DNA of 64,000 nt from Brachypterus glaber (Eukaryota > Arthropoda > Insecta > Coleoptera > Kateretidae). Under the pieces are notes generated by a model that was not told the DNA's origin, did not search any database, and saw only the letters and a program-made list of their open reading frames with translations. A program made the translations under genes and the position numbers. This document shows positions 2,257 through 63,051 of this stretch, piece after piece. Within the stretch, counting starts at the first letter, position 1; each line of letters begins with the position of its first letter. Location of the stretch: assembly GCA_958510825.1 (NCBI GenBank), contig OY294046.1, positions 9,960,847-10,024,846 of the forward strand. The letters are read 5' to 3'.

Positions 2257-3414
2257 AGTACTTACCCTTTTTAACGAGCGTTCGACAATAACCAAATTTT
2301 TTTATCGTAACTATAACATACTAAATAAAAGTTATGAAATTCCCAAGTTCAAGATCCATTGTATTAAGGAGTAAAGGGTACAAAAGCCAAAATCTTGATA
2401 AAAACGATTAATTTTTTATTCCTAAAACACCATGACGCGTTTCGACCATCATTTTCAAATGGTTACATATAAAAAACTACGTCAAAACCTCCATAGTTAA
2501 CCAAAGAACACAAAAATTTAACATTTAATTATGAAATATCAATTATTTATAATAAAAGTTTTCCCACACACACACACACACAAAGTACATTGATTTCAAA
2601 ATTTTGCTAAATATGACATATACTGCCCAAAATAGTCTTAAACAATAACACTGAATGGTTTGGACTTTTAGCATTCCATTTTAAAAAAAATGGAGTTTTT
2701 CATGTTGAAAATCCAAAAGTTTAAATATTTATATTGAACGCCCTGTATAAAATATTTTATTTTTTGCACATTAAGTAATTAGATACACCCTTTTAAGATA
2801 GGCTTACAAAATTTTATTAATTTTTGACAAAAAATAAAGAAATTGGACTTTGGTTTTATCTTAACACTTAAAATGCATTTTTTCTCAAAAAAAAAATTAT
2901 ATCTCAAAAACTATAAATAATAGACCCATACAATATGGTATCAAAATAAAGGCATTTTAATGAAAAATAAGATGGCATAATAAAAAATATACCATTCCAT
3001 TAAAAAAAAAAAAGTTAGATGTTACCCACCCTAAGAGGACAATCCTGTATATTTTAAAATATTTTTAAAATGTGCCTTTTTTAAAACCGTACAACTTTTC
3101 CATTTAAAGTTTTTCTCTAAATTGGATACTTTACTATATATCAACCGACTCGGCTTCGTTGAGACACCCTGTATATAATCATGTATGCATGTGCGCTGCG
3201 AAGAATATAATAACAGATTTCTTATTTATCAAAATAGATAACAAAATAATATTTATTTTGTTATCTATTTATATATAGGGTTAAAAAACCATAGAAGTTC
3301 TTCACTGTAGTGATGTGGAATAATATTTACCTACCCTTGTGATTAATTAAATTAAATCAATTATAAATCAATATTACTAAACTATACGTTGCCAAAGAAT
3401 CAAAAAAAAAAAAA
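2257..3414. other. Non-coding AT-rich stretch with repeat remnants
   Basis: No gene is visible. It contains a short CA microsatellite at 2565-2582. A CCCTGTATA end signature, typical of arthropod TIR elements, occurs at about 2743 and again at about 3168, but matching outer ends were not resolved. Confidence 0.5.
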
Positions 3415-3672
3415 AACAAAAGTTTTGGGTTAATTTTGGCACTTTTTATTCGTCACTTCTCAGTACACTTTACGTTTCATCATATATTATTACTTTCTCA
3501 AAAGCTAAAATACAACGGGATAATTTTTTTTTGTATTTTCTATATAACTTAAGTAATAAATTATCCCGTTGTATTTTTAGCTTTTGAGAAAGTCATAATA
3601 TATAATGAAACGTAAAGTGTACTGAGAAGAAAATAAAAAGTGCCAAAATTAAACCTAAACTTTTGTTTTTTT
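3415..3672. mobile_element. Foldback MITE, ~115-bp arms
   Basis: 3415-3530 and 3559-3672 are near-perfect inverted copies around a 28-bp spacer. The innermost arm sequence is AAATTATCCCGTTGTATTTT. The outer ends are runs of A on the left and T on the right. Non-coding. Confidence 0.9.
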
Positions 3673-6049: not shown

Positions 6050-6965
6050 TTATAATGTGGGGTGAAAAAGTAATTTTTTTCTATTTTTGAATAAGAAATC
6101 AGTATTGCCCAGGTAGCAAAATAACATGAAATTCACGTGAAAGTCACGTTAATATGTGACATGTGATGTTAAGATTGTAATCTCATTTAACAAGAATGTA
6201 GCATGGTGGGGATGTCCTAAGTCCGCCCCTAATAACATCACACAATGACATCCCGAAAATAACGTGTTTGTGACATCATAAATCCACATTCCTGTTATAT
6301 CTAATATCTTATGGATGCCGTTACTTTAATATTTAAATAATATTTTAGGATATTAGCTTTTTCTAAATTAAAACCATTAAAAACGCTATAACCCTATAAA
6401 AAAATCGGATTTAAAATCAATCAGTAATTGAAACAATCACAGATTGAAACAGATAGATTCTAAATACGAAATTGCAGATTAAGCGGAGAATATATCCTTT
6501 AATCCGTGTCCGTGGTCTTGAGAAGCCCGGCAGAGACCCCTATCCATTGGAAATCGTATAATGTGTATACAATTTCCTTATAATAATTTACTCTATCAAC
6601 ATCATCTTATATCGATTTTTTTGCTTTGAACGTCGGTGAGAAGCAAAATAACATGACATTCACGTGAAAGCCACGTTAATATGTGACATGCGATATATTC
6701 ACAGCGTTGCTAAATATTTGTTATTTAATAACATGGTTGTCACGTCACACGTGTTACGTTGCAAATGTGATGTTAAATACATGTTATTTTTCAATATTAT
6801 GTGATGTTATGATTTAGTTTAAAAATACACCCAAAAGTGATGTTAATTTCTTGTAATATAACATCCCTTGCTACCTGGGTGGTTTACATGTTTTGGAATT
6901 TTTGGTACTTTTATAATGTGGGGTGAAAAAGTAATTTTTTTTTATTTTTGAATAAGAAAGCAGTT
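6050..6965. repeat. ~57-bp direct duplication flanking the CCCAGGTAGC element
   Basis: 6050-6104 and 6909-6965 are nearly the same sequence, both containing TAATGTGGGGTGAAAAAGTA, in direct orientation on either side of the 772-bp element, with ~30 bp of spacer on the right. This is far longer than a transposition target duplication. It implies a pre-existing or later segmental duplication. Confidence 0.85.
6108..6879. mobile_element. 772-bp CCCAGGTAGC element, copy 1
   Basis: Begins CCCAGGTAGCAAAATAAC and ends with the inverted form TTGCTACCTGGG. A nearly identical copy in the same orientation lies at 11430-12200. The interior has no reading frame but is full of AACATG, GTGATGTTA and CACGTGAAAG words. 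The first ~45 bp recur inside at about 6645-6692. Flanking dinucleotides (TG here, TA in copy 2) suggest a 2-bp target duplication. Superfamily unknown. Confidence 0.9.
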
Positions 6966-7514: not shown

Positions 7515-10500
7515 CTTTGGGAAGCGGAATCTTGGTTACTGATGGAGGCCCAATCGTTGCTCCTCTCCTTCACCTCCTTCCTCTCAGACTCGACGAGCTC
7601 TCCGATTTTGAATTTGGCCATCATTTCGCGGGCGTCGCTGGAGTGACCTACATCTTCGAAGGGTTCACTGCCGTCCTTTCCAGCCTGCTCGAGAAGGACT
7701 TCTTCACCACCAGGGTGCTGGAGCAATAAGAAATGAAATAAAGTAGAGTTTATCGACAAAATACCCCGAATAAAAAAAAGCTTTTACAAAATATCTGGTG
7801 ACTAAAACGGGTGCAACAAAAATTCCGACGACTATTTCACAAACAATATATAGGCCAATCAAAACCTTGCATTTTTAGTTTCTTGATCAATCAGATCAAA
7901 ATGAATCTGATAATTTTTGCACATGTGCAATTATCACTAGGTTACTATGGAAACAAGAAACTGACAGTTACTGACATCTTAATAAATGTTATATTTTTGC
8001 AAAATGGGTTTTTAATTTGTGAAGCTTACCTTTAGTTGATTTATTTTTATTGACCAAAACATCCTAGGTATAAACCCTAATTAATTTCAGATAATATATT
8101 ATATTTTTGCACTTTGCATCTTAAAAGCTTTAAATCACTGATATTCATAAATTTTAATTTATTTAATTGAATCTTGGTATTAAAAACAGGCCACTCAACT
8201 CAACTTTATTAGAAACCGATCGCAAATTGTTTTTTTACGGGTGGAAACACCCGTTATTTTATTTCTTTTCAGTTGAAAACTAAACTTTTTAAACAAAAAC
8301 AGCAATGATCTTTATTTAAATTCTAAAAGATATATAACAACTATTTTATTGGAATAATCTCAAGCATAAAATATCCCTCAAGCGAAGTTTAGACTTGGAA
8401 ACATTCGCGAACAAGTGAACATCATGGTTTTAAAAAGCGCGGCAAATTTGAGATTAAATTTTTTAATTATAGTTGTAAAGTAATATTGTTGTTTAGTTCT
8501 TAAATTTTTAATTTAAATATGAAACAACATTAAACATGGTAAAATTATATACTTCCTTATTTTTTTTGTGAAATAATCTTTCAAAATACCATTCGTGCAT
8601 GTTGTTATACATCTTTTTTTACTGTATATAAAAAACATTTTGCTTAAGGAAATTGTTTTCGTGCATTTTTCGTCAAAATTCCTCCACTTGCGGTCTCGGA
8701 ATTTTGTAACACGAAAAATGCACTCAAACAATTGCCAAGCAAAATATTTTTTTAATACAGTAAAAAAATTATCGATAATTCAACATGAACTTATGATATT
8801 ACTACTGATAAAATATTCAGTTCCAGAATGTCCTAAAAGCAAGGTTCACAAAATAACCCAATTTTCTTGGGGTAAACGTCTCTTAAAAACAGTAGCGGAC
8901 TGGGTACATAGAGCCTGGGCTGGCAAAGTCCTCAGGGGCTCGCGAAACAGCCTAAGGGGAGCCCGCAAAACTGTCTTTTTAAAAATAATCTAAAAAGGTA
9001 TTTTTGTCCAACATTCACTGAATGTGAGGAAGACTTTTTTATTATCAGATTCACCAACTCAAAACACCACATGTACTTATAAATTTATGTGAAAATTTCA
9101 AAATTATTAACTCCTAACACTGGGGGTGAATTCACAATAATTATAATTATCACCAAGCTCCCAAAAATCCCAAAACAATTAAAAAAAAATGAAAAAAAAA
9201 GTTGAGTCTTTTGCATCCCTGGAGAAATTTTTATTAAGGATTATTTTTTAAACCATAATTACAAATTTAAAATAAAATTTAAAGTTAATGATTAGAAAGC
9301 TCATTAGAAAGTGTTGTTTTCTGGACTTTTTCTAAGTGGAAAAAAACATGGTTTTTTGCATGTCTTTTTCTAAAGTTGTTTTTTTTTTCACCTGTGGCAC
9401 ATATAAAATGTTCCAATTTTACATGATGAAAAGGAGACAATGTGGGAGGGGGTCTAAGAATAGCAAAAATCGATGACATAATTGTTGAACAGTCCCTCAG
9501 AATTATTTTGCTACCAGATATTCTATCTGTTACCTCTGAAATCGGCAACCTTATTAGACAGTTATTTTTTTTAAATGACTATATATCAAAAACTAACAGT
9601 CCTATGATAAAAATAACTGAAGATGTTTTTACAGAAAATTGATGGTGTACAAAAAGTCTTTCAAAAATCTCAAAAATCAAGGTAATTGTTAACAAGATTT
9701 AAAGATTTTTTATAAATTTTATTGAAAAGCTCAAAAATCTAGATTTTAACTCTCCATTAACCAGATGGGGTATTACAAACCCCAATGAGTTTAAAAACAT
9801 TCTTTTTGTCAAAATTCAGTGGTAAAGGCACCAAATTTCAATATTAAAAAAATACTAAGATGGGTCAGATATTGTACTACAAACTATTATAGCTCAAACA
9901 ATGTATTAAAATTATTGATATAATTATAATACATTGTATAATACAGGGTGTATTTGAAATAGGGTAGGAAATTTTAACAGGTGATTCTACATGATAAAAT
10001 ATGACAAAAAGTTCCTATAAACATATGTCTAAAAATGCGTCATAAGGGAGCTACGCCTCTTTGAAATTGGCTAAAAAAATCGGTTTTTATTTAATAACTC
10101 AGGAACCCTTTAAGATATGTTAACGAGGTTTTGCACGTGAATTAATCCTAATAAGGCCCATTTTTGCATGTCATTTTCACGTACTTATTTAAACCAGGGG
10201 TGTGCGAATCGGGGGGGCCTGATCAGTTTTTTGTCCCAAACTTTTTTCTGTGTAACTTTTTTGCAATTTTATTTTTGAAATATGATTGCTCAGGTCAAAA
10301 TACATAAAAAAGGTACTCTTGTTGTAATACTGTAGGATTAACCGTTTTCGAGAAAAGTTCATTTGAAGGTGACATTTTACGGTTCGAGGACGAAAAATTA
10401 AATACGAAAATGTCGAAAACCAAAATTTTAATGATGCATTGTTATTCTACATCAAAAACTAAGAAAAAAAGTTTCCATACATGTAGGTCGAAAAATCGCT

Positions 10501-13500
10501 TTTAAAGCTACCATAGCCCTTTAAAAATGGTGCATATTTAGGAGACCATAGCTCCATTAGGATTGATTTTTGGAAGTACCTGTATATGAGGTGTTTTTCT
10601 TAGTTTTTAATGTACATTCGCCCTGCATCATTGGTTTTCAACATTTTAGTATTTAATTTTTCGTCCTCGAACCGTGGAATTTCACCTTCAAATTAATTTT
10701 TCTCGAAAACGGTTAATCCTAGAGTATTACAACAAGAGTACCTTTTTTATGTATTTTGACCTGAGGAATCATATTTCAAAAATAAAATTGCAAAAAAGTT
10801 ACACAGAAAAAAGTTTGGGACAAAAAACTGATAAGCCCCCTCCGTTTCGCACACCCCTGGTTGAAATAAGTACATGAAAATAACACATAAAAACGGGCCT
10901 TGGTAGGATTAGTTGACGTGCAAAACCTCGTTGATATATCTCAAAGGGTTCCTGAGATATTAAATAAAAACCGATTTTTTTAGACACTTTCAAAGGGGCG
11001 TAGCTCCCTTATGACGCAATTTTAGACATATTTATAAGAACTCTTTGTCATATTTTATGATGCAGAATCATCTGTTAAAATTTCCGACGCTATTTCAAAT
11101 ACACCGTGTATAATATAATAAGTCTGTGTACAAATATTTTTTAGTGTTTCACCCCCAGGGCTATGACAAAGAAGATTTGGGGAGGGGAAAGAATTTAAAA
11201 TCACAACTTTTTGGCATATAACTAACTCCTTTAAAGTTGTAAATTTCATGAAAAACTAGTTAAAAATAAAAAGGTTTTATAGCTAAGTTACTTATTTATA
11301 TTTTTACACAGAATTTAAATTTTTTATTCTTTGTTTGAAAGCAAAAACGCGAATTGCGAAAATATTAATAAATTAAAATAAAAAAGTTGTAAATTTTACA
11401 TTTACACCTTCTGGTAAAATGATTATGTACCCAGGTAGCAAAATAACGTGACATTCACGTGAAAGTCACGTTAATATGTGACATGTGATGTTAAGATTGT
11501 AGTCCTATTTAACAAGAATGTAGCATGGTGGGGATGTCCTAAGTCCGCCCCTAATAACATCACACAATGACATCCCGAAAATAACGTGTTTGTGACATCA
11601 TAAATCCACATTCCTGTTATATCTAATATCTTATGGATGCCGTTACTGGTACTTTAATATTTAAATAATATTCTAGGATATTAGGTTTTTCTAAATTAAA
11701 ACCATTAAAAACGCTATAACCCTATAAAAAAATCGGATTTAAAATCAATCAGTAATTGAAACAATCACAGATTCAAAAAGATAGATTCTAAATACGAAAT
11801 TGCAGATTAAGCGGAGAATATAATCCGTGTCCGTGGTCTTGAGAAGCCCGGCAGAGCCCCCTATCCATTGGAAATCGTATAATGTGTATACAATTTCCTT
11901 ATAATAATTTACTCTATCAACATCATCTTATATCGATTTTTTTGCTTCAAACGTCGGTGAGAAGCAAAATAACATGACATTCACGTGAAATCCACGTTAA
12001 TATGTGACATGCGATATATTCACAGCGTTGCTAAATATTTGTTATTAAATAACATGGTTGTCATGTCACACGTGTTACGTTGCAAATGTGATGTTAAATA
12101 CATGTTATTTTTCAATATTATGTGATGTTATGATTTAGTTTAAAAATACACCCAAAAGTGATGTTAATTTCTTGTAATATAACATCCCTTGCTACCTGGG
12201 TAATGTCAATGGAGCTCTCTACAACTAGATTTATGAAACAAAAGACGTCTAATAATAATAATAATAATAATAATAACTAATTGCTTGAACTGTCAAAGTC
12301 AAATTATTTTAGAGAATTTTAATTTTACAAAATTATGGTATTTGCTGCTTAATAAACTTCTGGAATGTATTCACACAATGTGAAGAAAGTGCATGGAATG
12401 AACGGTATAAAACATAGAACAGAGGAACATATTTTTTAAAATATTGGAATAGAATGAAATAGTATGTAGCACTAAAATTTTTTGTAATGTAACCAGTCTA
12501 TTATGGTATAAAACACCTTCGAGGTCCCAGAATGACTATAAACAAATAAATAAAAAAAAAAAAAATCTACCCTATCTCTATCTCATTTGTGCTACACATT
12601 CCAGCCAACCAAATAAATACTGTATTTTCATACAACAAATACAGTTTATTAAGTTGGCCGGAAAGTGTAGCAGTGAGCGGCACGTACGAACATAGCTAAT
12701 ATGAATCTGTAGAATAAGATAATTCTACTAAAATTTAGATGGCGCCAGTAATTTCTTTAATAATGCACTTTTCGCCCGGCCAAGTAAATATTGTATTTGT
12801 TCAACAAAGAACAAATACAGAATTTGTTTGGTTGGGTGGAAGTGGGAGTGTATGTATGTCTTCTATCCTTTTTGGGTAGAACTTTTGTCCCTGTCTAATC
12901 TAATGGGAGAATTCTAAATTTTAAGAATTAAAAGCTTTTTTTCTATTGTACTTGATATTTAATCTATATTTTTTATGAAGCTGAAGTTTGCAACGTTTTT
13001 TTGTACTTTAGAAAACTCGCAAGCGGCTTGTTTTCTAAACTTGTAGTCGTGCACTAAAAAGGTATGTTATGAAACTAGTACTTTAATATACTATTTGAAT
13101 TACCAATGCAAAAAAAACGTTGAAAACTTCAGCTTCATTATTTTTTTTATAGTTTTTTTTTCCATATACTTAATTTACTTAAGATACTCTAAGTTTTGAT
13201 TTTATATTTTATGTAACTTTGGCAGAAACCTTTTGGTTCTCCAATATTATTATTATTGATTTTTTTTCCAAGAGATGCAATGTCAATTTTAAGAATTTTA
13301 AGAATTAAAAATTATGAAATGTAAGTATGTAAAACTATGTATTTAAATTTTTACTTAAGAGATAAAATTAACAACATTTTGAGCAAATTTTACTTTTTTT
13401 TAAATTAAAAAGAAAGTTGTAAATTTTCTGAATACAAAAGTTGATAATTATAATATAATTATTATATAATTATTATATTATGTAAATTTTATTCCTTGTA

Positions 13501-14690: not shown

Positions 14691-27973
<13,283 letters not shown>

Positions 27974-32074: not shown

Positions 32075-32252
32075 TAAATTATTCGAAATTATTGCACCTC
32101 TAATGACTAAAAAAATAGTGAAAAATCTGTTTTTTTTGTGTCATTAGGGTGGTTCAATTTTTTTAAATTACTCGAAATTATTGCACCTCTAATGACTAAA
32201 AAAATAGTGAAAAATCTGTTTTTTTTGTGTCATTAGGGTGGTTCAATTTTTT
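32075..32252. repeat. 89-bp tandem duplication at the edge of a TIR element
   Basis: ATTGCACCTCTAATGACTAA starts at 32091 and again at 32180, with the following sequence through TCATTAGGGTGGTTCAATTT repeated. Confidence 0.92.
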
Positions 32253-32985
32253 TTACATGTCAGATTTAGCTGAACTTTGGTATAAAGGCTTCTTTTGTTA
32301 TTCTTAATGCGGACCAATACCCAAAAACTGAAAATTCAAAATGGCGAAATAAATATGGCCGATTTATTTTTAAAATTTTGCCAAAATAAATTAAATATGA
32401 CAACAAAAAATTATGAAAAATTCCGCCAGTTGTTTATGGGTTATTTTCCTTATATGTACTTGTGATTACTTTAAAAAATTATGATTTTTTACCATCCTGT
32501 TTTTTGAAAAAAAAAAAACATTAAAAATTTGGCAAAATATGAGAATTTTTTTAATTCTTTTTATAGCAAGCAAAATAAGCCTAAAATAATTACAGATTTA
32601 CGAAGAACTGTTAACTTCCAGACATAATTTATTTTTAATATTTAAGGAAGAAAAATCGTTTGTTAGCCAACTTGAATGATTTTATTTTCAAAATTAAATT
32701 AAAAAAACAGGCAGATACAAAATCATTAAATTTTTGCAGTAATTATATAAGGAAAATAACCCATACAAAAATGAGCTGAAGTTTTCATAAATTTTTGTTT
32801 TATGCCATATTTTATGCCATTTTTTTTATTTTGGCAAAATTTAAAAAATAAATCGGCCATATTTATTCCGCCATTTTGAATTTTAATTTTTTGGGTATTG
32901 GTCCAAATTAAGATTAACAAAAGAGGCCTTTATACTAAATTTTATCAAAATCGGACATTTTTGGAAAAATTGAAACGACCTAATG
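32226..32985. mobile_element. ~760-bp foldback element, CATTAGGGTGGTTC ends
   Basis: Left arm 32226 to about 32460 and right arm about 32745-32985 are inverted copies (AAAGGC-TCTTTTGTTA, GACCAATACCCAAAAA, AAATATGGCCGATTTATT, GGGTTATTTTCCTTATAT mirrored). The end motif also occurs singly at about 31432. Non-coding. Confidence 0.88.
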
Positions 32986-54112: not shown

Positions 54113-57100
54113 TTACTGGCCTCGCATCTGTACGTTGTGCCTTCTCAGGACCTGGAAGACCGTATCTTTAAGTGTTTGGGGCTTGCAGTACTCCTCCAGC
54201 CATGTAAACACTCCGGCAGAGAGTTCGGTGAAGTTATTTACAGAAACGCCGCTAAATGTTAGAAATAGTTGCTCCATAATTGCCTGGAACTAAAATATAT
54301 GTTTTTATTCGACTGTATACAGGAGCTTTCCGAAGGGGGGTCACGTCCCTTCGCGAAATGACACAGGAGTCTACGTTTTTCTTTGGTAATCAAAATGTTA
54401 TAAGATTTTTTTTGCTCATTAATAGTATATTGTAATCCTAGATGGGAAAGTGTTTGCTTTCTGGGTCGATAGAAGATCTCGCCTGTCGAGCCTGGCCACT
54501 TAATGAGACCCAGAAAACCACATATCCGGCGTGGATTACATATAGTTTTTTATCCTACACAAAAAATAGTATAAAACAGTATACAATACTAGAGAGCCTT
54601 AATATTAAGGCATTATAATGTGAACATTTTTTTTTTGTAGTCGGCAAACCTCAGGCAAGTCGGCAAACCTTTATGTCAGTCGGCAACATTTTTTGGTAGT
54701 AAGTAAATCTTAGGCGAGTCGGAAACCTTTTATTTTTTTTTAGATGCGAGGAGCTTTTATTGTCATTAAAATTTCTGCCAGGGGAAAGCTTTTTTTGGAG
54801 GTGAAAAAATAATTTTGAAAGCAAATCTCAGGCGTGTTTGCAACAAAAAATTTTGGCAGTCTGAATATCTTACCTTCACAATACCACGACAAAAACCTCG
54901 AAACAACCCTTGTATGTAAAAACGCCAATTTTGTGTACATGTATAAACTTCTAGAATAGGTCAAGGTTAAGGTTATTCGTGCCTGTTTCTGATTGGCCGG
55001 TTCGAGTAAACGCGAGTATGCGCTTCTCCTTCTTTGTTTTGTGAGAGCCTTGGCAAACGCCGTTTCTACCAGTTTAGTATGCGAGCGGAACTAGGTCAAG
55101 CCGCACCACGTCGGTATGCGGTTTCCGCTAAATCGTCGGTTATTCACTATACTCAATTTTGTACCATAAAATATGGTTTTTATACTAATAATTATTTGTA
55201 TCCATTAAATTAGTGGAATTAAAGTAATGTGTAACAAACTGAACCAGTGTTTTAATTAATATAACTATAATACAAAAGATATTCGACGCGTGTAGCAACA
55301 TAGCAGAACCCCATCCCAAATACAACGGGAGGTTCTCAATATTTTCCATGGTCGACTTCGAGCCGAATCAGCAAAATTTAACGGTCCTTCAAAAGCTAGT
55401 GATAATCAATAACAATCAAGTGAAAAACGATAATAAACAATGTAAAATCAGTGTGAAACCACGCCGGGACGCAGAGCAACGAAGAGTGCACCAATCAGCT
55501 GTTCCTACCGGAGATATGCAAGTTCAAACCTTTATTTTTTATTCCTATCCGTAAAAAATACTTTCTAGGATCAATAAGGTAAAATATTTTTATTATTTAT
55601 AGCTTATAAACAATTATTCATTTTTTAAGCGTTTTATGTGATGTTCTACGGAATATTACATTTTCTTTTATGCATTTTATTTGTATTGAATATTCAGCGG
55701 AATATTCTTTTAGGCAATCAGCGGATTGTCTACGAGTTTGTTTTTGGAACGGTTGGCGGATTGTTCCAGAACAAAAATAAAATAACTCTATAGTTATTTT
55801 AGTTTAGGCGTAATATTCAGCGGAATATTACAAACGATAATCAGCGGATTATCAAACATTTTTATTGAATATTCAGCGGAATATTCTTTTAGGCAATCAG
55901 CGGATTGTCTATGAGTTTGTTGTTGGAATAGTTGGCGGATTATTCCAGAACAAAAATAAAATAACTCTATAGTTATTTTAATTAAGGCGTATCAAATATT
56001 TGGTTTGAGACAGTCAGCGGATTGTTTCAATTCAAAAGTAAAAACAATACAGTTTTTAAAAAACATTTATATTTAATATTCAGCGGAATATTAAAATAGG
56101 CAATTAGCGGATTGTCTATGAGTTGTTGTTGAGATAATTAGCGGATTATTTCAGCACAAAATTATACATACATTATAACGTTCAATATTCAGAGGAATAT
56201 TGGAATATTCAGACAAATTGTTTTGTGCATGCAGTCAGCGGACTGACGCAATTCAATTAATACATTTTTTTATTTAAAAAAAAAAAAGACATTTTTATAA
56301 GTCTAATTTTCAGAGGAAAATTAGAAAGAAAAGCAGCGAAATTCAGCGAAGTTCAGCGAATTGTTTTGTGAATACAGTCGGCGGATTGTCTCAATTCAAT
56401 TAATACATTTTTTAAGTTTAATTTTTAGCGGAAAATTAAGCATCTATTATAAATAATCAGCGGGTTATTTTGCGAATTTGTTTTTGGAATGGTTAGCGAA
56501 TTGTTTCAATTCAAATAAAATAAGAATATTTTTTAAAGTTAAAGCATTTTTGTACCAAAATGGCGCAAGCAAATGTCAATTTAGAAGCGTTACTAAAACG
56601 TCGCGAAGCAATAAAGGGACATTTAAAAAGATTTAGGGGTTTTATTGACGAAGTAGGAGATGACGTCGATAAAATTAGCCAAATTCAAGAACGTCTGGAT
56701 GCGATTCTTAACATGCGATTTGAATTTGATGGCATACAGACAGATATAGAAATATTAAGCGATTTAGATGCGATTGCGCATGAGCAGGAAAGATCCGAGT
56801 TTGAAAACTATTATTTTAAATATGTATCCTTAGCGAAAAAATTAATTACGAGTAATATAAAAAATGAAGAGGCTTCGGCAAAAAGTAATGTCACTACGGT
56901 TATCACAGCGGGTGATACCAATAATTTAAATATTAAATTACCGAATATAAACCTACCGGAATTTACCGGACGATATGACCAGTGGTCGCAGTTCAAGGAC
57001 ACTTTCGAAAATTTAATTGACAAAAATAAATCTTTAAATAATATACAAAAGTTTTACTATCTACAGGCGGCTCTAAAAGGAAATGCTGCTCAAGTCATAC

Positions 57101-60100
57101 AGTCATTACAAATAAACAGTGAAAATTATAACTCAGCCTGGGAGTTATTAAACGAGCGTTTTGAAAATAAAAAAGCTATAACACATGCGCATATCAAAGC
57201 AATATTTGAAATACCAAACATAACTAGAGAATCACATTCAAATTTGAGAAACTTTTTAGACACTTTTAATAAGAATTACCGCGCCTTAGAAAATTTAGGG
57301 GAGAATGTGTCACAATGGGACACTATTCTAATTTATATCTTAAATTCAAAACTAGACAATTATACAAAAAAGGAATGGGAAAACTATGCCAAAGATATAA
57401 CTAATCCAAAAATAACCGATTTTAAAAAATATTTAGGACAGCGCTGCGCATTATTAGAAACAATAGATTGCAAATATCAAAATACTCAAGCAAATAATCA
57501 GTTTAGTGTACAACAGTCTACAGTACAAACAAAAAATAAAGTATTTATGACGTCAACAAAACAATACAGTTGTTATTATTGTAAAAATCCACATTCCATA
57601 TACGATTGTAAAAAATTCAATGATATGTCAATAAATAATCGATATACTGAAGTTAAAAAATTAAATTTATGCATGAATTGCTTAAGACCAAATCATAAAA
57701 CGCAAGAATGTCAATCACGCGGTTGTCAAATATGTTACAAAAAACACAATTCTCTTTTGCATTTTAATAATCAAGTTATTCAAAGAAATAATACACAAAA
57801 TCGAGAAAATATTTCAAGTACAAATACGAGTACAAATACATCAAATGAAAATAAAAATTCGAATAACACGTCAAGTGCCAATGCACAAGATACTTCTTCA
57901 AAAAATAGTCAACAATCTAATGTAGTTACATTAAATTGTAGTTTAAAAGATAAAACCGTTGTGATGCTATCTACAGCATCAGTTTTTATATATGACGCGA
58001 ATAATAAACCCGTACAATGCCGAGCGCTACTCGACAACGGATCGATGAGTAATTTAATTACAAATAAATTATTTAAAAAGTTAAATTTGACATCAAATAC
58101 TATAGATTTGCCAGTTGTTGGTATAAATCAAACTTTAACCCACATTAATAAGCGTACACAAACAAATATTCAATCAATGCATAATAATTTTAAAACTCAA
58201 TTATCATTTTTAGTAATAGATAATATAACAGACGCTTTACCACAATATTCTATGACAAAGTCAAGTTTTAATATACCAGAATCAGTTAATTTAGCAGATC
58301 CCAATTTTAATGTTTCTTCCGAAATAGACATTTTGTTAGGAGCAGGCATATTTTTTGACCTGTTATGCGTTGGTATGATAAAGCTTGGCAGAGGATTACC
58401 CTCCTTAATAAAAACAAAATTAGGTTGGATAGTTTCCGGTGAAATATCTAATTTTAAAAATCAGTCAAGACCACAATGCTTTTTTGTTCAAAATAATATT
58501 CAAGGTCAACTCGAAAAATTTTGGGAAGTAGAGGAAGTAAATACTAGAAGCTATTCCAATGAAGAATCCGAATGCGAAAAACATTTTGTTGATAACGTGT
58601 CACGCGATAAAAATGGTAATTTTTTAATAAAGCTACCTTTAAAAAATAATTATAAAGACTTAGGCGATTCTGAACAAACGGCAATTAAACAATTTAATTC
58701 TTTTGAAAACAGATTAAATAAAAACATTATTTTAAAAGACGAATGTAATAAATTTATGGGCGAATATTTAAAACTTGGGCACATGAGCGAAATACCCAAG
58801 GACGAATATGATTTAGATTCAATTAAATTCTACTTACCGTACCATTGTATAGAAAAGGATAGTATTACGACTAAGGTAAGATGTGTTTTTAATGCATCAA
58901 TGAAGAGTAGTTCGGGAATATCATTTTTTATTTATATCATTAAACGACTGTCTCATGGTGGGTCCATGTATACAGGATGATTTATTTACAATTTTAATCA
59001 GGTTTAGGAAACACGACATTGTTATAACAGGCGACATTGAGAAAATGTACAGACAAATTAATATACATAACTCAGACCGCGATTTACAACGAATTGTTTA
59101 TCGGGCAGATCCAAATTTAGAGTTAAAACATTTTCGACTAAATACATTAACATACGGTACGGCACCTGCATCTTTTATTGCGACAAGATGTTTAGCGAAA
59201 TTAGCAGAGGAAAATGACAAATGGCCTAAAGGTCCATGTAATCAAACTATTAATGAGGAATTTTTAGAAATTAAGCCAAAAAGCTTAAATTTATTTGTTA
59301 AACCGGACATAGATAATTTAATTAATAGATATTCTAGCCTAACTAAGTTACAAAGGGTAACTGCATATTGTTTAAGATTCATACATAATACAAAGGTGGT
59401 GAAAGAAACTAGAATAACTGGTAAATTACAAAATTCAGAGTTAATACAAAGTTTAAATGTTTTAATTAAAATAGTTCAAAAAACCGAATTCCATAATGAA
59501 TTTATGGCATTATCTAAATCAAAATCTGTTGATTTAAATAGTAAACTTAACTCTTTAAATCCTTTTTTGGATGAGAATAAAATAATACGGGTAGGAGGTA
59601 GACTTAAAAACACTTCTTTAAATTTTAATCATAAACATCCTGCTGTTCTTCCAGCACATAACCATTTTACTAGATTAATAGTTCTTTATGAACACGAGAA
59701 AAACTTACATGCAGGTATAAATGCCACCTTATCATTTGTAAGACAGAACTTTTGGCCTATAAATGGTAGAAGTACTGTCCGCGGAATAGTCAGAGGCTGT
59801 GTCCAATGTTTTAGGGCCCGACCTACAATAAAAAATCAAATAATGGTCGACTTGCCTAAATCGAGAGTAACGCCCACGCGACCTTTTTACGCTTGCGGCG
59901 CAGATTTTGCTGGTCCATATTTAATTAAGGACAGTAGTTTTCAAAATCGAAGATACATAAAGTCATACATATGTTTGTTCGTCTGTATGAGCACTAAGGC
60001 AGTCCATCTTGAGTTAGCAACAGGACTAACTACTGATTGCTTTATAAACGCATTCCAGAGATTCACATCCAGACGCGGAATTTGTGCTGAAATTAACACT

Positions 60101-63051
60101 GATAACGGTACAAACTTCGTAGGAGCGTGTAATGAATTAAAAGAAATTAGTAACATTTTAAATAGCGATAAATTTCAAGGTTTTTCTTCCGCAAATAATA
60201 TTAAATGGAATTTTATTCCTGCAAGGTCTCCGCATGTAGGTGGGTTGTGGGAATCATCTGTAAAGTCCGTAAAACATCACCTATCACGCATTTTAACAGA
60301 TGTTAAATTAACATATGAGGAATTTTATACCTTATTGACGAAAATAGAGGGTATCCTTAATTCACGTCCCTTGATTCCTATGTCCTCGGATCCTGAAGAA
60401 TTGGATGTTTTAACGCCCGGACATTTTCTAATTGGTGGGCCAATTAATGCATTACCCGAATTACCAGTGGAAAAAACACCTTCAAATAGACTTAAATATC
60501 GTTATGAACTAGTTAATAAATTATCACAATCATTTTGGCGTTGTTGGACGAGAGATTACTTACATACGTTACAGCAAAGGTCAAAGTGGAAATTTAAAGC
60601 GAAAATAGAGTCATTACCAGGCTCAATGGTATTGCTTATTGATGACAACCTTCCGTCACGTAAGTGGCAACTTGGACGCATCGTAGAAATTCATCCAGGT
60701 GCTGATGGAATTGTGAGAGTGGCGACTGTTAAAACTGCTAGTGGACTCTTTAAGCGTGCCATTAATAGACTAAGTTTTTTACCCTTAGAAATTAATGAAA
60801 AAGAGACTTAAAGACTTTGATACATTTTTAAGTTATAGTTATTAATGTTTTTAAGCCAAACCCACGCACTGTTCTTTGTATTTTTTTTGTGTTGAAAGGG
60901 TGCTTTCAAGGGGGGCGGCTTTATGTATAAACTTCTAGAATAGGTCAAGGTTAAGGTTATTCGTGCCTGTTTCTGATTGGCCGGTTCGAGTAAACGCGAG
61001 TATGCGCTTCTCCTTCTTTGTTTTGTGAGAGCCTTGGCAAACGCCGTTTCTACCAGTTTAGTATGCGAGCGGAACTAGGTCAAGCCGCACCACGTCGGTA
61101 TGCGGTTTCCGCTAAATCGTCGGTTATTCACTATACTCAATTTTGTACCATAAAATATGGTTTTTATACTAATAATTATTTGTATCCATTAAATTAGTGG
61201 AATTAAAGTAATGTGTAACAAACTGAACCAGTGTTTTAATTAATATAACTATAATACAAAAGATATTCGACGCGTGTAGCAACATAGCAGAACCCCATCC
61301 CAAATACAACGGGAGGTTCTCAATATTTTCCAGTACAAAAGGTTCAATTTTTCGTACTATGGTCTGTTTTTTCAAGCAAGATAGTAAATTAAAAATTGCA
61401 CAGTTAATATTTTTACAACAGGTTTTTAATACAATATATATGTGTATATAATATAGTTATGTTTTATAAAATAAGCTACGCAGTATATTCGCACATCCAA
61501 TATTCGAATCTGCTTTGAAAATATTCACTGTGCGATTTTTAATTTACTATCTTGCTTGATGAAACAGACCATAGTGCCTATTGAAACGGACATTTGAACT
61601 TAAACGTCAAAATTTGACATTTAATGTTTTGTCAAAAATACGTATTTATTGATACTATGGTCTGTTTCATCAAGCAAGATAGTAAAATAAAAATCGCACA
61701 GTGAATATTTTCAAAACAGATTCGAATATTGGATGTGCGAATATACTGCGTAGTTTATTTTATAAAACATAACTATATTCTATACATAAACATATACTTT
61801 TCAAACCTGTTGTAAAAATATTTACTGTGCGATTTTTAAAAAAGTTACTATCTTGCTTGATGAAACAGACCATATGTAGCAGTTTTCAATGATAGCGCCT
61901 TCGCCAATTTTGTAAATAAAAAAAAATCTCACAGGTCCCCCTTAAAAAAAAAATGCGTGCATGCTAAGTTTCAGGTTTCCAGCTGTCCCAGAACTTGCGA
62001 CCATAATATATTGAAAAATAAGAACAAAAAAATCATATAAACATAGGGCCGCAAATCGGTCCTAATCCATTAATGGACTTATGGCCCATTGAATGTAGGT
62101 CTCATAAATAGGGCTCAAAAAAAGCACTAATAAAATAATTTAACACTACAGGGCAATTCCACATTAAAACCTAAAATAAAGTTTATCACATCCTGGCCCA
62201 AAAATGAATATTAAGTTAGTTATAGACTCTTTAAATAGTAACACTTTTTAAGCCCTGGGGCATGTCCTGTATTTTTCTCGAAAACAGTTGCTTTTACAGT
62301 ATTACACTAAGAGAATCTTTTTTATTTATTTTTACTCAAAGAATCCATGATCTGTAAAAAGAATGCAACAAAAATACACAGAAAAAAAATTGGGGCATAA
62401 ATGTGGTAACCCACAGCCATTTCGCACGCCTAGGCGCACCTCCAGTAAAGTTTACAAACTAAAATAACTTAAAATAATACTAAACCACATGCAAAACCTC
62501 ATCTCCCTAGCTCAAAGGGCTCCAACGATATTAAATAAAATCCCATTTTTGGTATCCCCTGTAATGGGCTATAACTCCCTTAGGACCGATTTGCGGGTCT
62601 CCGTTTATATAAACTTTTTTTTATATTTTTTTATGTAGTATGTGTACCTTTAAGGATGGTCGCGAGTCCCAGACACACCTATTTTTATGATTTTCAGACA
62701 AAAATTAGAAGTTTTATCCATTTAGAGTGGAAAAAGACAAAATATTTTTTTCAAAATAAGATTACAAGGCACTTACCACCGAAAATTTGACGTCGTCCGA
62801 TATCCTAGTCTCAGTGTGCCCTGGCTGCGACTGTTGAGCTTTGACGATCTGTTCATAGTTTGTCTGCATTATCCTCAGGGCAACAACTTCTTTGCGCAGC
62901 GCGTTTCGTTCTTCTTCCTGTTTGCGCTTCTGTTGCTGCAAGTATTGGATGTAGTCGATGGATTTTTGTAGCACAGTTGCCTTGCTTAATTTGTAGCCAG
63001 ACACGTCTGTCTGTTGGCAAGTTGGCACTAATTCTTGGAGTGTGTCGTAAC
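54113..63051 (-). CDS. MLX: MLX / bigmax bHLH-zipper transcription factor (3' part)
   Basis: Max-like protein X is the obligate partner of Mondo/ChREBP factors in sugar-responsive transcription. Two coding exons are in the window: 63051-62777 (275 nt; acceptor CAG, donor GTAAGT) and 54289-54113 (177 nt; acceptor TAG, stop TAA). They join in phase 0. The first gives the end of the loop and helix 2 (GYDTLQELVPTCQQ, KLSKATVLQKSIDYIQYLQQ) and the leucine-zipper-like coil through NYEQIVKAQQ and SDDVKFSV. The second gives FQAIMEQLF and LSAGVFTWLEEYCKPQTLKD, the dimerisation and cytoplasmic-localisation tail typical of MLX and not of MAX. The basic DNA-binding region and N-terminus must be upstream, beyond what I could find before the right edge. 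The 8.49-kb intron carries the BEL/Pao element, two MITEs and a foldback relative. Confidence 0.95.
54431..54540. repeat. Hairpin in MLX intron
   Basis: ATTGTAATCC and CTTTCTGGGTC on the left are mirrored by GACCCAGAAAA and GGATTACAT on the right. A probable small MITE. Confidence 0.7.
54640..54735. repeat. Degenerate AGTCGGCAAACCTCAGGC repeat
   Basis: Four loosely spaced AGTCGGCAA/AGTCGGAAA words with CCT-AGGC between them. Confidence 0.5.
54940..55348 (+). repeat. BEL/Pao 5' LTR
   Basis: 409 bp, TG at the start and CA at the end. By eye identical to 60924-61332 at a constant offset of 5,984. Confidence 0.97.
55349..55368 (+). promoter_or_regulatory. Primer-binding site, tRNA-Tyr-like
   Basis: Directly after the LTR: TGGTCGACTTCGAGCCGAAT. 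A tRNA-Tyr 3' end would predict TGGTCCTTCGAGCCGGAT, so the match is good apart from a two-base GA insertion and one substitution. The tRNA is inferred from memory of insect tRNA-Tyr. Confidence 0.55.
55688..56507 (+). other. Leader with ~21 covarying AGCG-loop hairpins
   Basis: Between primer site and gag, short hairpins follow one another every ~20-60 nt. Positions: 55688-55707, 55713-55730, 55746-55767, 55779-55800, 55811-55830, 55836-55853, 55867-55886, 55892-55909, 55925-55946, 55958-55979, 56006-56029, 56072-56095, 56099-56116, 56131-56152, 56181-56204, 56232-56245, 56302-56325, 56374-56389, 56418-56439, 56451-56470, 56486-56507. Stems are 5-10 bp. The four-base loop is AGCG in most, GGCG in three, AGAG in two and CTAT in two. 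Stem sequences differ yet still pair. Confidence 0.92.
56560..58980 (+). CDS. BEL/Pao gag-protease and start of reverse transcriptase
   Basis: 806 codons from an ATG in context CAAAATGGC. Residues 1-110 are coiled and charged. 125-300 is the DUF1759 gag region (LPEFTGRYDQWSQFKDTFEN). Three zinc-knuckle-like motifs follow: CX2CX3HX4C at 338-350, CX2CX4HX4C at 371-384 and CX2CX3HX4H at 389-401. The retropepsin site is LLDNGS at 490-495; most relatives have D-S-G or D-T-G, so Asn is unusual but reported-type variation is possible. DILLGAGIFFDLL follows. The reverse-transcriptase N-terminal segment FYLPYHCIEKDS and RCVFNASMKSSSG reaches about residue 788. A 16-nt insertion at 58924-58939, with the neighbouring ATATCA duplicated, then throws the frame, and the last 19 codons are not reverse-transcriptase sequence. 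Confidence 0.95.
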   Translation: MAQANVNLEALLKRREAIKGHLKRFRGFIDEVGDDVDKISQIQERLDAILNMRFEFDGIQTDIEILSDLDAIAHEQERSEFENYYFKYVSLAKKLITSNIKNEEASAKSNVTTVITAGDTNNLNIKLPNINLPEFTGRYDQWSQFKDTFENLIDKNKSLNNIQKFYYLQAALKGNAAQVIQSLQINSENYNSAWELLNERFENKKAITHAHIKAIFEIPNITRESHSNLRNFLDTFNKNYRALENLGENVSQWDTILIYILNSKLDNYTKKEWENYAKDITNPKITDFKKYLGQRCALLETIDCKYQNTQANNQFSVQQSTVQTKNKVFMTSTKQYSCYYCKNPHSIYDCKKFNDMSINNRYTEVKKLNLCMNCLRPNHKTQECQSRGCQICYKKHNSLLHFNNQVIQRNNTQNRENISSTNTSTNTSNENKNSNNTSSANAQDTSSKNSQQSNVVTLNCSLKDKTVVMLSTASVFIYDANNKPVQCRALLDNGSMSNLITNKLFKKLNLTSNTIDLPVVGINQTLTHINKRTQTNIQSMHNNFKTQLSFLVIDNITDALPQYSMTKSSFNIPESVNLADPNFNVSSEIDILLGAGIFFDLLCVGMIKLGRGLPSLIKTKLGWIVSGEISNFKNQSRPQCFFVQNNIQGQLEKFWEVEEVNTRSYSNEESECEKHFVDNVSRDKNGNFLIKLPLKNNYKDLGDSEQTAIKQFNSFENRLNKNIILKDECNKFMGEYLKLGHMSEIPKDEYDLDSIKFYLPYHCIEKDSITTKVRCVFNASMKSSSGISFFIYIIKRLSHGGSMYTG
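58955..60811 (+). pseudogene. BEL/Pao pol remainder: RT stub, integrase, C-terminal domain
   Basis: 618 codons open, but the first Met is internal to reverse transcriptase, not a true start. Residues 1-86 are RT fingers/palm (VGPCIQDDLFTILIRFR, GDIEKMYRQI, TYGTAPASFIATRCL). At about residue 87 (nt ~59215) the sequence jumps to the pre-integrase region; the Y-x-D-D catalytic box and RNase H that should lie between are absent. Then come the H2C2 zinc-binding region (HEKNLHAG to GCVQCFRARP), the integrase core with Asp in ACGADFAGPY, Asp in INTDNGTNFVG and Glu in SPHVGGLWESSVK, and the DUF5641 tail (SQSFWRCWTRDYLHTLQQR). Integrase residues look intact, RT cannot work. Confidence 0.93.
60908..60923 (+). 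promoter_or_regulatory. Polypurine tract
   Basis: AAGGGGGGCGG just before the 3' LTR, the expected plus-strand primer. Confidence 0.75.
60924..61332 (+). repeat. BEL/Pao 3' LTR
   Basis: 409 bp, TG to CA, matching the 5' LTR without gaps, followed by the GTACA duplication. Confidence 0.97.
61357..61575 (+). mobile_element. ~220-bp MITE, CTATGGTCTGTTT ends, copy A
   Basis: Inverted ends CTATGGTCTGTTT and AAACAGACCATAG extend inward for about 50 bp (AAGCAAGATAGTAA, TTTTTAA, GCACAGT). The central ~115 bp is unique and matches copy B inverted. Confidence 0.9.
61655..61874 (-). mobile_element. ~220-bp MITE, CTATGGTCTGTTT ends, copy B (inverted)
   Basis: Same element as 61357-61575 in the opposite orientation, 79 bp away. 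The pair could form a large hairpin in MLX pre-mRNA. Confidence 0.9.
62030..62620. mobile_element. Diverged foldback relative of 9943-11110
   Basis: Ends GGGCCGCAAATCGGTCCTAA and the inverted TTAGGACCGATTTGCGGGTC. The interior keeps CTCGAAAACAGTTGCTTTTACAG-type and TGCAAAACCTCATCTC phrases of the family. Confidence 0.75.

Follow-up and report, generated by a model that had tools for sequence, protein, structure and literature searches.

A row of sense-strand RNA hairpins under one tetraloop rule in the leader of a BEL/Pao retrotransposon: a possible multivalent Gag-binding packaging signal

Why does the untranslated leader of an LTR retrotransposon in Brachypterus glaber carry some twenty short hairpins that largely share a loop and differ in their stems? 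Hairpins between the primer site and gag are a known feature of retroviral packaging signals, such as HIV-1 SL2/SL3, RSV SL-C and the GACG hairpin pair that belongs to murine-type retroviruses, and the hairpins described here occupy the same place. Retroviral leaders carry few, unlike hairpins, whereas in this leader 19 hairpins obey one loop rule and their number varies between genomic copies by a repeated unit. To our knowledge, RNA selection by LTR retrotransposons other than those of yeast has been little studied, and a search of open-licence PMC papers found no BEL/Pao leader array of this kind. A first-pass annotation of the locus had described the array and suggested that base pairing, rather than primary sequence, has been kept in its stems; we examined this suggestion by pairing, covariation, strand and copy comparisons, and weighed the functions that such an array may have.

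The window, i.e., the whole 64-kb stretch of DNA that was analysed (G000:C4:9960847-10024846, within a 648-Mb assembly of 842 contigs), contains the element whose features are listed in Table 1. This element is a BEL/Pao LTR retrotransposon, with TG...CA LTRs, a 5-bp target duplication (GTACA, directly 5' of the 5' LTR and directly 3' of the 3' LTR), a DUF1759 Gag, an integrase and DUF5641. The primer-binding site was recognised by the TGG adjoining the LTR and not by a priming tRNA, its length of 18 nt being an assumption. In Pfam, H2C2 and DUF5641 scored above their cut-offs, and rve, at 23.8 bits, fell short of the 32.6 that it requires. The frames of the window gave no Pfam match to the Pao peptidase A17 or to a reverse transcriptase at E 0.001; near 59210, the copy at C2:47.06 Mb has about 1 kb of RT sequence that is absent here. 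The window copy is shortened at this point, yet its two LTRs are identical.

The Gag protein displays three zinc knuckles by Cys/His spacing, at residues 338-350, 371-384 and 389-401, and their ligand residues are invariant in 17/17 aligned Gag proteins. DUF1759 is likewise found in all 17 of these proteins, with the Pao peptidase A17 in 9/17 and RVT_1 in 10/17 (E 1). Among 7993 candidates scored, 47 Gag relatives were identified; those with a named source were mostly from insects, the exceptions being one coral and one bacterial MAG. The best match among these candidates reached 44%, and the nearest named ones came from the beetles Harmonia axyridis (42%) and Anoplophora glabripennis (40%). 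In a PDB profile search, the knuckles resembled nucleocapsids weakly: the best HIV-1 NC entries obtained E 0.66-0.73 and one other Gag 0.09, with spike coiled coils, surely spurious, ranking above the nucleocapsids. No relatives were detected in IMG/VR contigs, GTDB contigs or phage records, the last searched at the DNA level.

Table 1. Coordinates of the element and of its leader array in the window
Feature	Position	Strand	Remarks
5' LTR (TG...CA)	54940..55348	+	identical to 60924-61332 (identical block 410 nt)
Putative primer-binding site	55349..55366	+	TGG start immediately after LTR
Upstream hairpin	55636..55661	+	loop TACG at 55647, 11 bp; weak covariance-model match, E 0.44
179-nt repeat unit 1	55679..55857	+	RGMG loops 55696, 55720, 55755, 55819, 55843; CTAT 55788
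Repeat unit 2 and following stretch	55858..56036	+	RGMG loops 55875, 55899, 55934, 56016; CTAT 55967
Diverged unit 3	56056..56175	+	RGMG hairpins at 56082, 56106, 56140
Further RGMG hairpins	56176..56512	+	56191 (AGAG), 56237 (5 bp), 56312 (AGAG), 56380 (GGCG), 56427, 56459, 56495
gag-protease open frame	56560..58980	+	DUF1759; three zinc knuckles
pol remainder, different frame from gag	58955..60811	+	integrase (H2C2, rve), DUF5641
3' LTR	60924..61332	+	identical to 54940-55348

Other repeats are present in the window. A foldback at 61358-61874, 86% self-complementary, begins about 26 nt past the 3' LTR, and further foldbacks are located at 3410-3672, 9933-11119, 21659-21896 and 32231-32985. 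Positions 1-1037 are made up of tandem copies, about 94-97% alike, that recur roughly every 217 nt. Furthermore, two direct copies of a 785-nt segment (6096-6880 and 11417-12201), some 5.3 kb from each other, are 96% identical. This repeat was not taken for an LTR element and includes a stop-to-stop frame that resembles a possible host cytochrome-b5-type exon.

The leader carries 22 hairpins with tetraloops, their stems measuring 5-13 bp, at 55636-56509 (874 nt), between the primer site (55349-55366) and the start of gag (56560), as the first-pass annotation had placed them. That annotation had counted about 21 hairpins in some 820 nt, and 21 with a stem of at least 5 bp are indeed found in 55688-56509 (19 RGMG and 2 CTAT). 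The variants that it had listed beside the prevailing AGCG loop were also recovered: 19 loops follow the pattern R-G-M-G (14 AGCG, 3 GGCG and 2 AGAG), two are CTAT, and one, TACG, belongs to the upstream hairpin. The RGMG rule consists of a purine at position 1, G at positions 2 and 4, and C or A at position 3; since the 19 hairpins were selected by their loop, the presence of the loop guanines in 19/19 is circular. Their closing pairs are C-G in 13 cases, U·G in five and U-A in one. The block duplication noticed at first pass was borne out as well, with 55858-55991 of unit 2 lying 179 nt from 55679-55812 of unit 1 and being 94% identical to it.

The loop word is closely tied to a stem. In 55636-56515 there are 24 RGMG tetramers, 19 of which cap a stem of at least 5 bp, versus 3/402 on the + strand in the rest of the window. 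The remaining 5/24 cap no 5-bp stem; three stemless AGCG (56335, 56345 and 56355) sit in a 10-nt tandem repeat, where the closing pair is C·A. This repeat, CAGCGAAATT, at 56334-56360 inside the array, carries the loop word without stems.

Shuffled leaders had been named at first pass as a check, and this was carried out: 18 RGMG-loop stems of at least 6 bp occur in 55687-56507, against a mean of 0.044 and a maximum of 1 in 1000 dinucleotide shuffles, and the minus strand of the same interval has 0. When hairpins were picked blind to the loop, by 8 near-perfect pairs, 19 leader hairpins were obtained (16 RGMG, 2 CTAT and 1 TACG). A covariance model of 19 hairpins, run over the 64 kb on both strands at E <=1, returned 27 matches, every one in the leader. 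Nineteen of these are necessarily the hairpins from which the model was built, one is the TACG hairpin (E 0.44) and the remaining seven come from the array read on its minus strand; elsewhere in the 64-kb window there was no match at E 1.

Pairing between the arms is specific to each hairpin. Over pairs 1-8, 147/152 cells were formed, and exchanging the 3' arms among hairpins lowered this number to 117.2 on average, with a maximum of 135 in 5000 exchanges. For the 18 distinct hairpins of the window, 96.5% of 144 stem cells pair, two-sided changes occur at 6/8 pairs, and the covariation score was 0.708, versus 0.326 when shuffled (0/500) and at most 0.223 with slid partners. Adding the hairpins of three further loci (26 distinct hairpins from four loci, broken relics included) gave 94.7% of 208 cells paired, two-sided changes at 7/8 pairs and a score of 0.677 versus 0.329 shuffled. 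The number of two-sided pairs was matched by 22/500 shuffles in the smaller set and by 17/500 in the larger, and that of pair types by 9/500 and 5/500, respectively; the evidence from these two covariation measures is modest, and, since duplication links the hairpins, and likewise the copies, to one another, the statistics are not phylogenetically independent. The particular stem change quoted at first pass, from 55746 to 55925, is C-G to U-A, as stated, and is accompanied by G·U to A-U in the neighbouring pair.

The strand on which pairing is kept was assessed by counting G·U and A·C mismatches under a strand-symmetric definition that allows both alike. In the 19 leader hairpins, G·U occurs 17 times and A·C once, versus 186 and 157 times in 170 hairpins from the rest of the window. 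Since G·U is acceptable only in the sense RNA, this large excess indicates that sense-RNA pairing is conserved. When all 24 RGMG tetramers are considered over pairs 1-6, the count of G·U is 19 and that of A·C is 5, the latter lying without exception in the stemless 10-nt repeat. These counts bear directly on a function at the DNA level, in which the hairpins would be sites of a DNA-binding protein or a palindrome-rich regulatory array. The gypsy insulator likewise consists of repeated sites in an insect element, located after the 5' LTR and before gag; that insulator, however, acts as DNA and has a fixed primary sequence, whereas here the stem sequence varies while sense-RNA pairing is kept and the mismatches are strand-biased. 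DNA palindromes should give G·U and A·C about equally, as the hairpins of the rest of the window do, and on this count the DNA-site reading was set aside as most improbable.

Folding of the leader is consistent with a structured RNA. The minimum free energy of the leader corresponds to z -11.9 in the sense and -7.9 in the antisense orientation (200 shuffles each), and eight of nine control stretches ranged from -3.1 to 1.2. The ninth, at window position 1500, reached -12.3 and comes with an inverted repeat (2012-2256), so that a strong z by itself proves little. In the fold of the whole leader, the mean pair probability is at least 0.9 for 11 of the 22 hairpins, 0.36-0.56 for seven and 0.00 for four, the low values of some hairpins presumably arising because the repeats pair mutually.

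The array is known from one element family at four loci in one genome: a search of the assembly with the leader gave 10 matches, distributed among the window, C2:47.06 Mb, C19:25.27 Mb and C12:11.91 Mb. The C2 copy represents the same element, its LTRs matching at 98.8% and 93.7% and its main internal blocks at 97.5-99.1%, and the C19 and C12 copies are about 70-82% identical. The young C2 copy has three 179-nt units and 23 RGMG hairpins with a stem of at least 6 bp, versus two units and 18 hairpins in the window; one of its hairpins has lost its outer pairs, and its counterpart of the hairpin at 56312 bears AGCG instead of AGAG, a C/A switch at loop position 3 between near-identical copies. 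Three RGMG hairpins plus one with an AGCA loop are retained in C19, and one clean RGMG hairpin, one mismatched near the loop and one broken AGCA hairpin in C12, both copies ending soon after. A search with the LTR gave 17 matches, and RGMG hairpins of at least 6 bp were found at the four leader-bearing loci only, all of which carry them (about 1.5 kb per side inspected). Three LTR pieces read by eye (C1:65623531, C1:65620193 and C2:67721940) are rearranged remnants with no array. In that at C1:65623531, the segment before the array (55414-55485) is kept at 97% and the LTR part at 87%, and the hairpins that follow it are absent.

Comparison of units and copies, in alignments built from sequence only, without structure, reveals how the stems have changed. 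Three pairs changed and one broke between units 1 and 2, and five changed and none broke between units 2 and 3. Relative to unit 2, the C19 copy shows seven changed stem pairs and none broken, one of them two-sided (U-A to C-G), and relative to unit 1, ten changed and one broken; hairpin C of C12 has eight changed and one broken, with two two-sided changes, and hairpin B three changed and one broken. Most stem changes in these two old relics thus preserve pairing. Single comparisons, with P 0.07 to 0.6, are each weak. When they were first combined, the test gave 14 changed and 0 broken pairs against a null of 4.46 (P 0.0018), its comparisons and its 8-bp cut having been chosen post hoc. Eight variants of this test were then considered, with either unit as reference, with or without C12, and cut or uncut; broken/changed pairs ranged from 1/21 to 4/29 with C12 and from 0/14 to 2/18 without it, and, with 4.5 to 10.1 broken pairs expected on average under the null, P was <=0.004 in every variant, C19 and C12 sharing some changes and hence not being independent. 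Two-sided changes gave P 0.016 to 0.20 across the variants and are, taken alone, weaker evidence for kept pairing.

A neutral expansion, i.e., an ordinary tandem repeat that contains palindromes by chance and whose covariation is an artefact of few duplications, would agree with the growth of the array by 179-nt units (two in the window, three in C2), with the weak single tests and with the three AGCG tetramers of the stemless repeat. We nevertheless consider it improbable, as broken pairs fall below chance in all eight combined variants, two-sided changes are seen in several hairpins, mismatches are asymmetric between strands, and hairpins occur at all four leader-bearing loci found. With pairing and covariation above the arm-shuffle and slid controls, the G·U/A·C asymmetry and the few broken pairs, the first-pass suggestion holds, and the evidence supports the conclusion that sense-RNA pairing, and not sequence, has been kept in the stems.

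As to what this RNA would do, anatomy and analogy give as the best reading a multivalent recognition array at the position of packaging and dimerisation signals in retroelements. Structured sense-strand RNA between the primer-binding site and gag, and a Gag with zinc knuckles, both features of retroviral-type packaging signals, are seen here. We propose that the leader RNA would fold into a row of about 20 short hairpins, mostly presenting an R-G-M-G tetraloop, with stem sequences free to drift provided that pairing holds; the zinc knuckles of the Gag that the element encodes would bind each loop with low affinity, guanines 2 and 4 being the putative contact bases, and the row of sites would raise avidity, so that Gag could select, and nucleate on, the full-length element RNA. 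A multivalent Gag-binding packaging signal is given a probability of roughly 0.48, its function being drawn from anatomy and analogy.

Gag binding is favoured by the guanines at loop positions 2 and 4, the three conserved Gag knuckles and the parallels in HIV-1 and HBV. Tetraloops of HIV-1 with G at positions 2 and 4 are bound by zinc knuckles, a module that the present Gag also has; NC contacts G7 and G9 in G6-G7-A8-G9 as well as G9 and G11 in G8-G9-U10-G11, in both cases loop positions 2 and 4 (PMC7599994). The SL-C tetraloop of RSV includes G218. The HIV-1 leader is described as binding about two dozen NC (PMC7395439). The HBV core protein recognises RGAG loops, which fall within RGMG, in several stem-loops with one loop motif; these multiple packaging signals are dispersed over the genome and bind the core protein, whereas the present hairpins are clustered in the leader of an element that encodes Gag (PMC7612645). 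A protein that recognises two guanines in the loop would conserve just such a rule. Against the packaging reading counts the replacement of the GGAG loop in HIV-1, which had no significant effect on packaging (PMC7599994), as does the weak profile similarity of the knuckles to nucleocapsids, and against a fixed G at position 4, the AGCA loop seen once in C19 and once in C12.

The same leader position and the presence of self-complementary sequence are shared with the retroviral dimer initiation site, a hairpin whose loop is a palindrome of some 6 nt; here the loops have 4 nt, with a self-complementary centre of at most 2 nt, and the sites are many. An array for dimer linkage, in which near-palindromic hairpins would open, anneal to their counterparts on another RNA copy and zip two genomes together, the central GC of the loop self-pairing between molecules, is a serious rival. 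In 22/22 cases, prediction favours the homodimer over two separate hairpins (-31.9 versus -20.8 for 55934), although such an energy gain is expected of any near-palindrome. The central loop dinucleotide is self-complementary in 19/22 hairpins (GC in 17, UA in both CTAT loops), but not in the two AGAG loops or the TACG loop, and loop positions 1 and 4, unpaired in the predicted AGCG and GGCG dimers, are yet mostly R and G. The 6-nt palindrome of the retroviral initiation site is absent from these 4-nt loops. Kissing of GC-rich palindromic loop residues is described for HIV (PMC4588261). We regard dimer linkage as a less likely main role of the array than packaging, and packaging and dimer functions may coincide.

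The location of the array within an untranslated leader would also agree with binding of a host RNA-binding protein, or with a translation or export element acting on the long leader. The array contains 7 ATG, about 20 being predicted by base composition; TGA (9) and GTA (4), which share its composition, are likewise scarce, so that the scarcity of ATG is not special. No host motif was identified, and Rfam gave 0 matches at E <=1 in 54900-56700. A host-protein, translation or export role is judged quite unlikely.

Returning to the Gag-binding packaging signal, a broader claim would be that the array represents a new type of encapsidation signal, modular and variable in copy number, in which about 20 interchangeable hairpins confer specificity through loop valency and not through a unique fold, under an R-G-M-G rule independent of those of HIV-1 and HBV; this is possible, with the odds leaning against it. 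A row of like sites with variable stems would lend itself well to testing the valency model of RNA packaging, and, if the packaging reading is true, the number, spacing and loops of the sites could be related directly to Gag binding. Further, our results suggest that covariation among the repeats within one element can flag functional RNA without a deep alignment.
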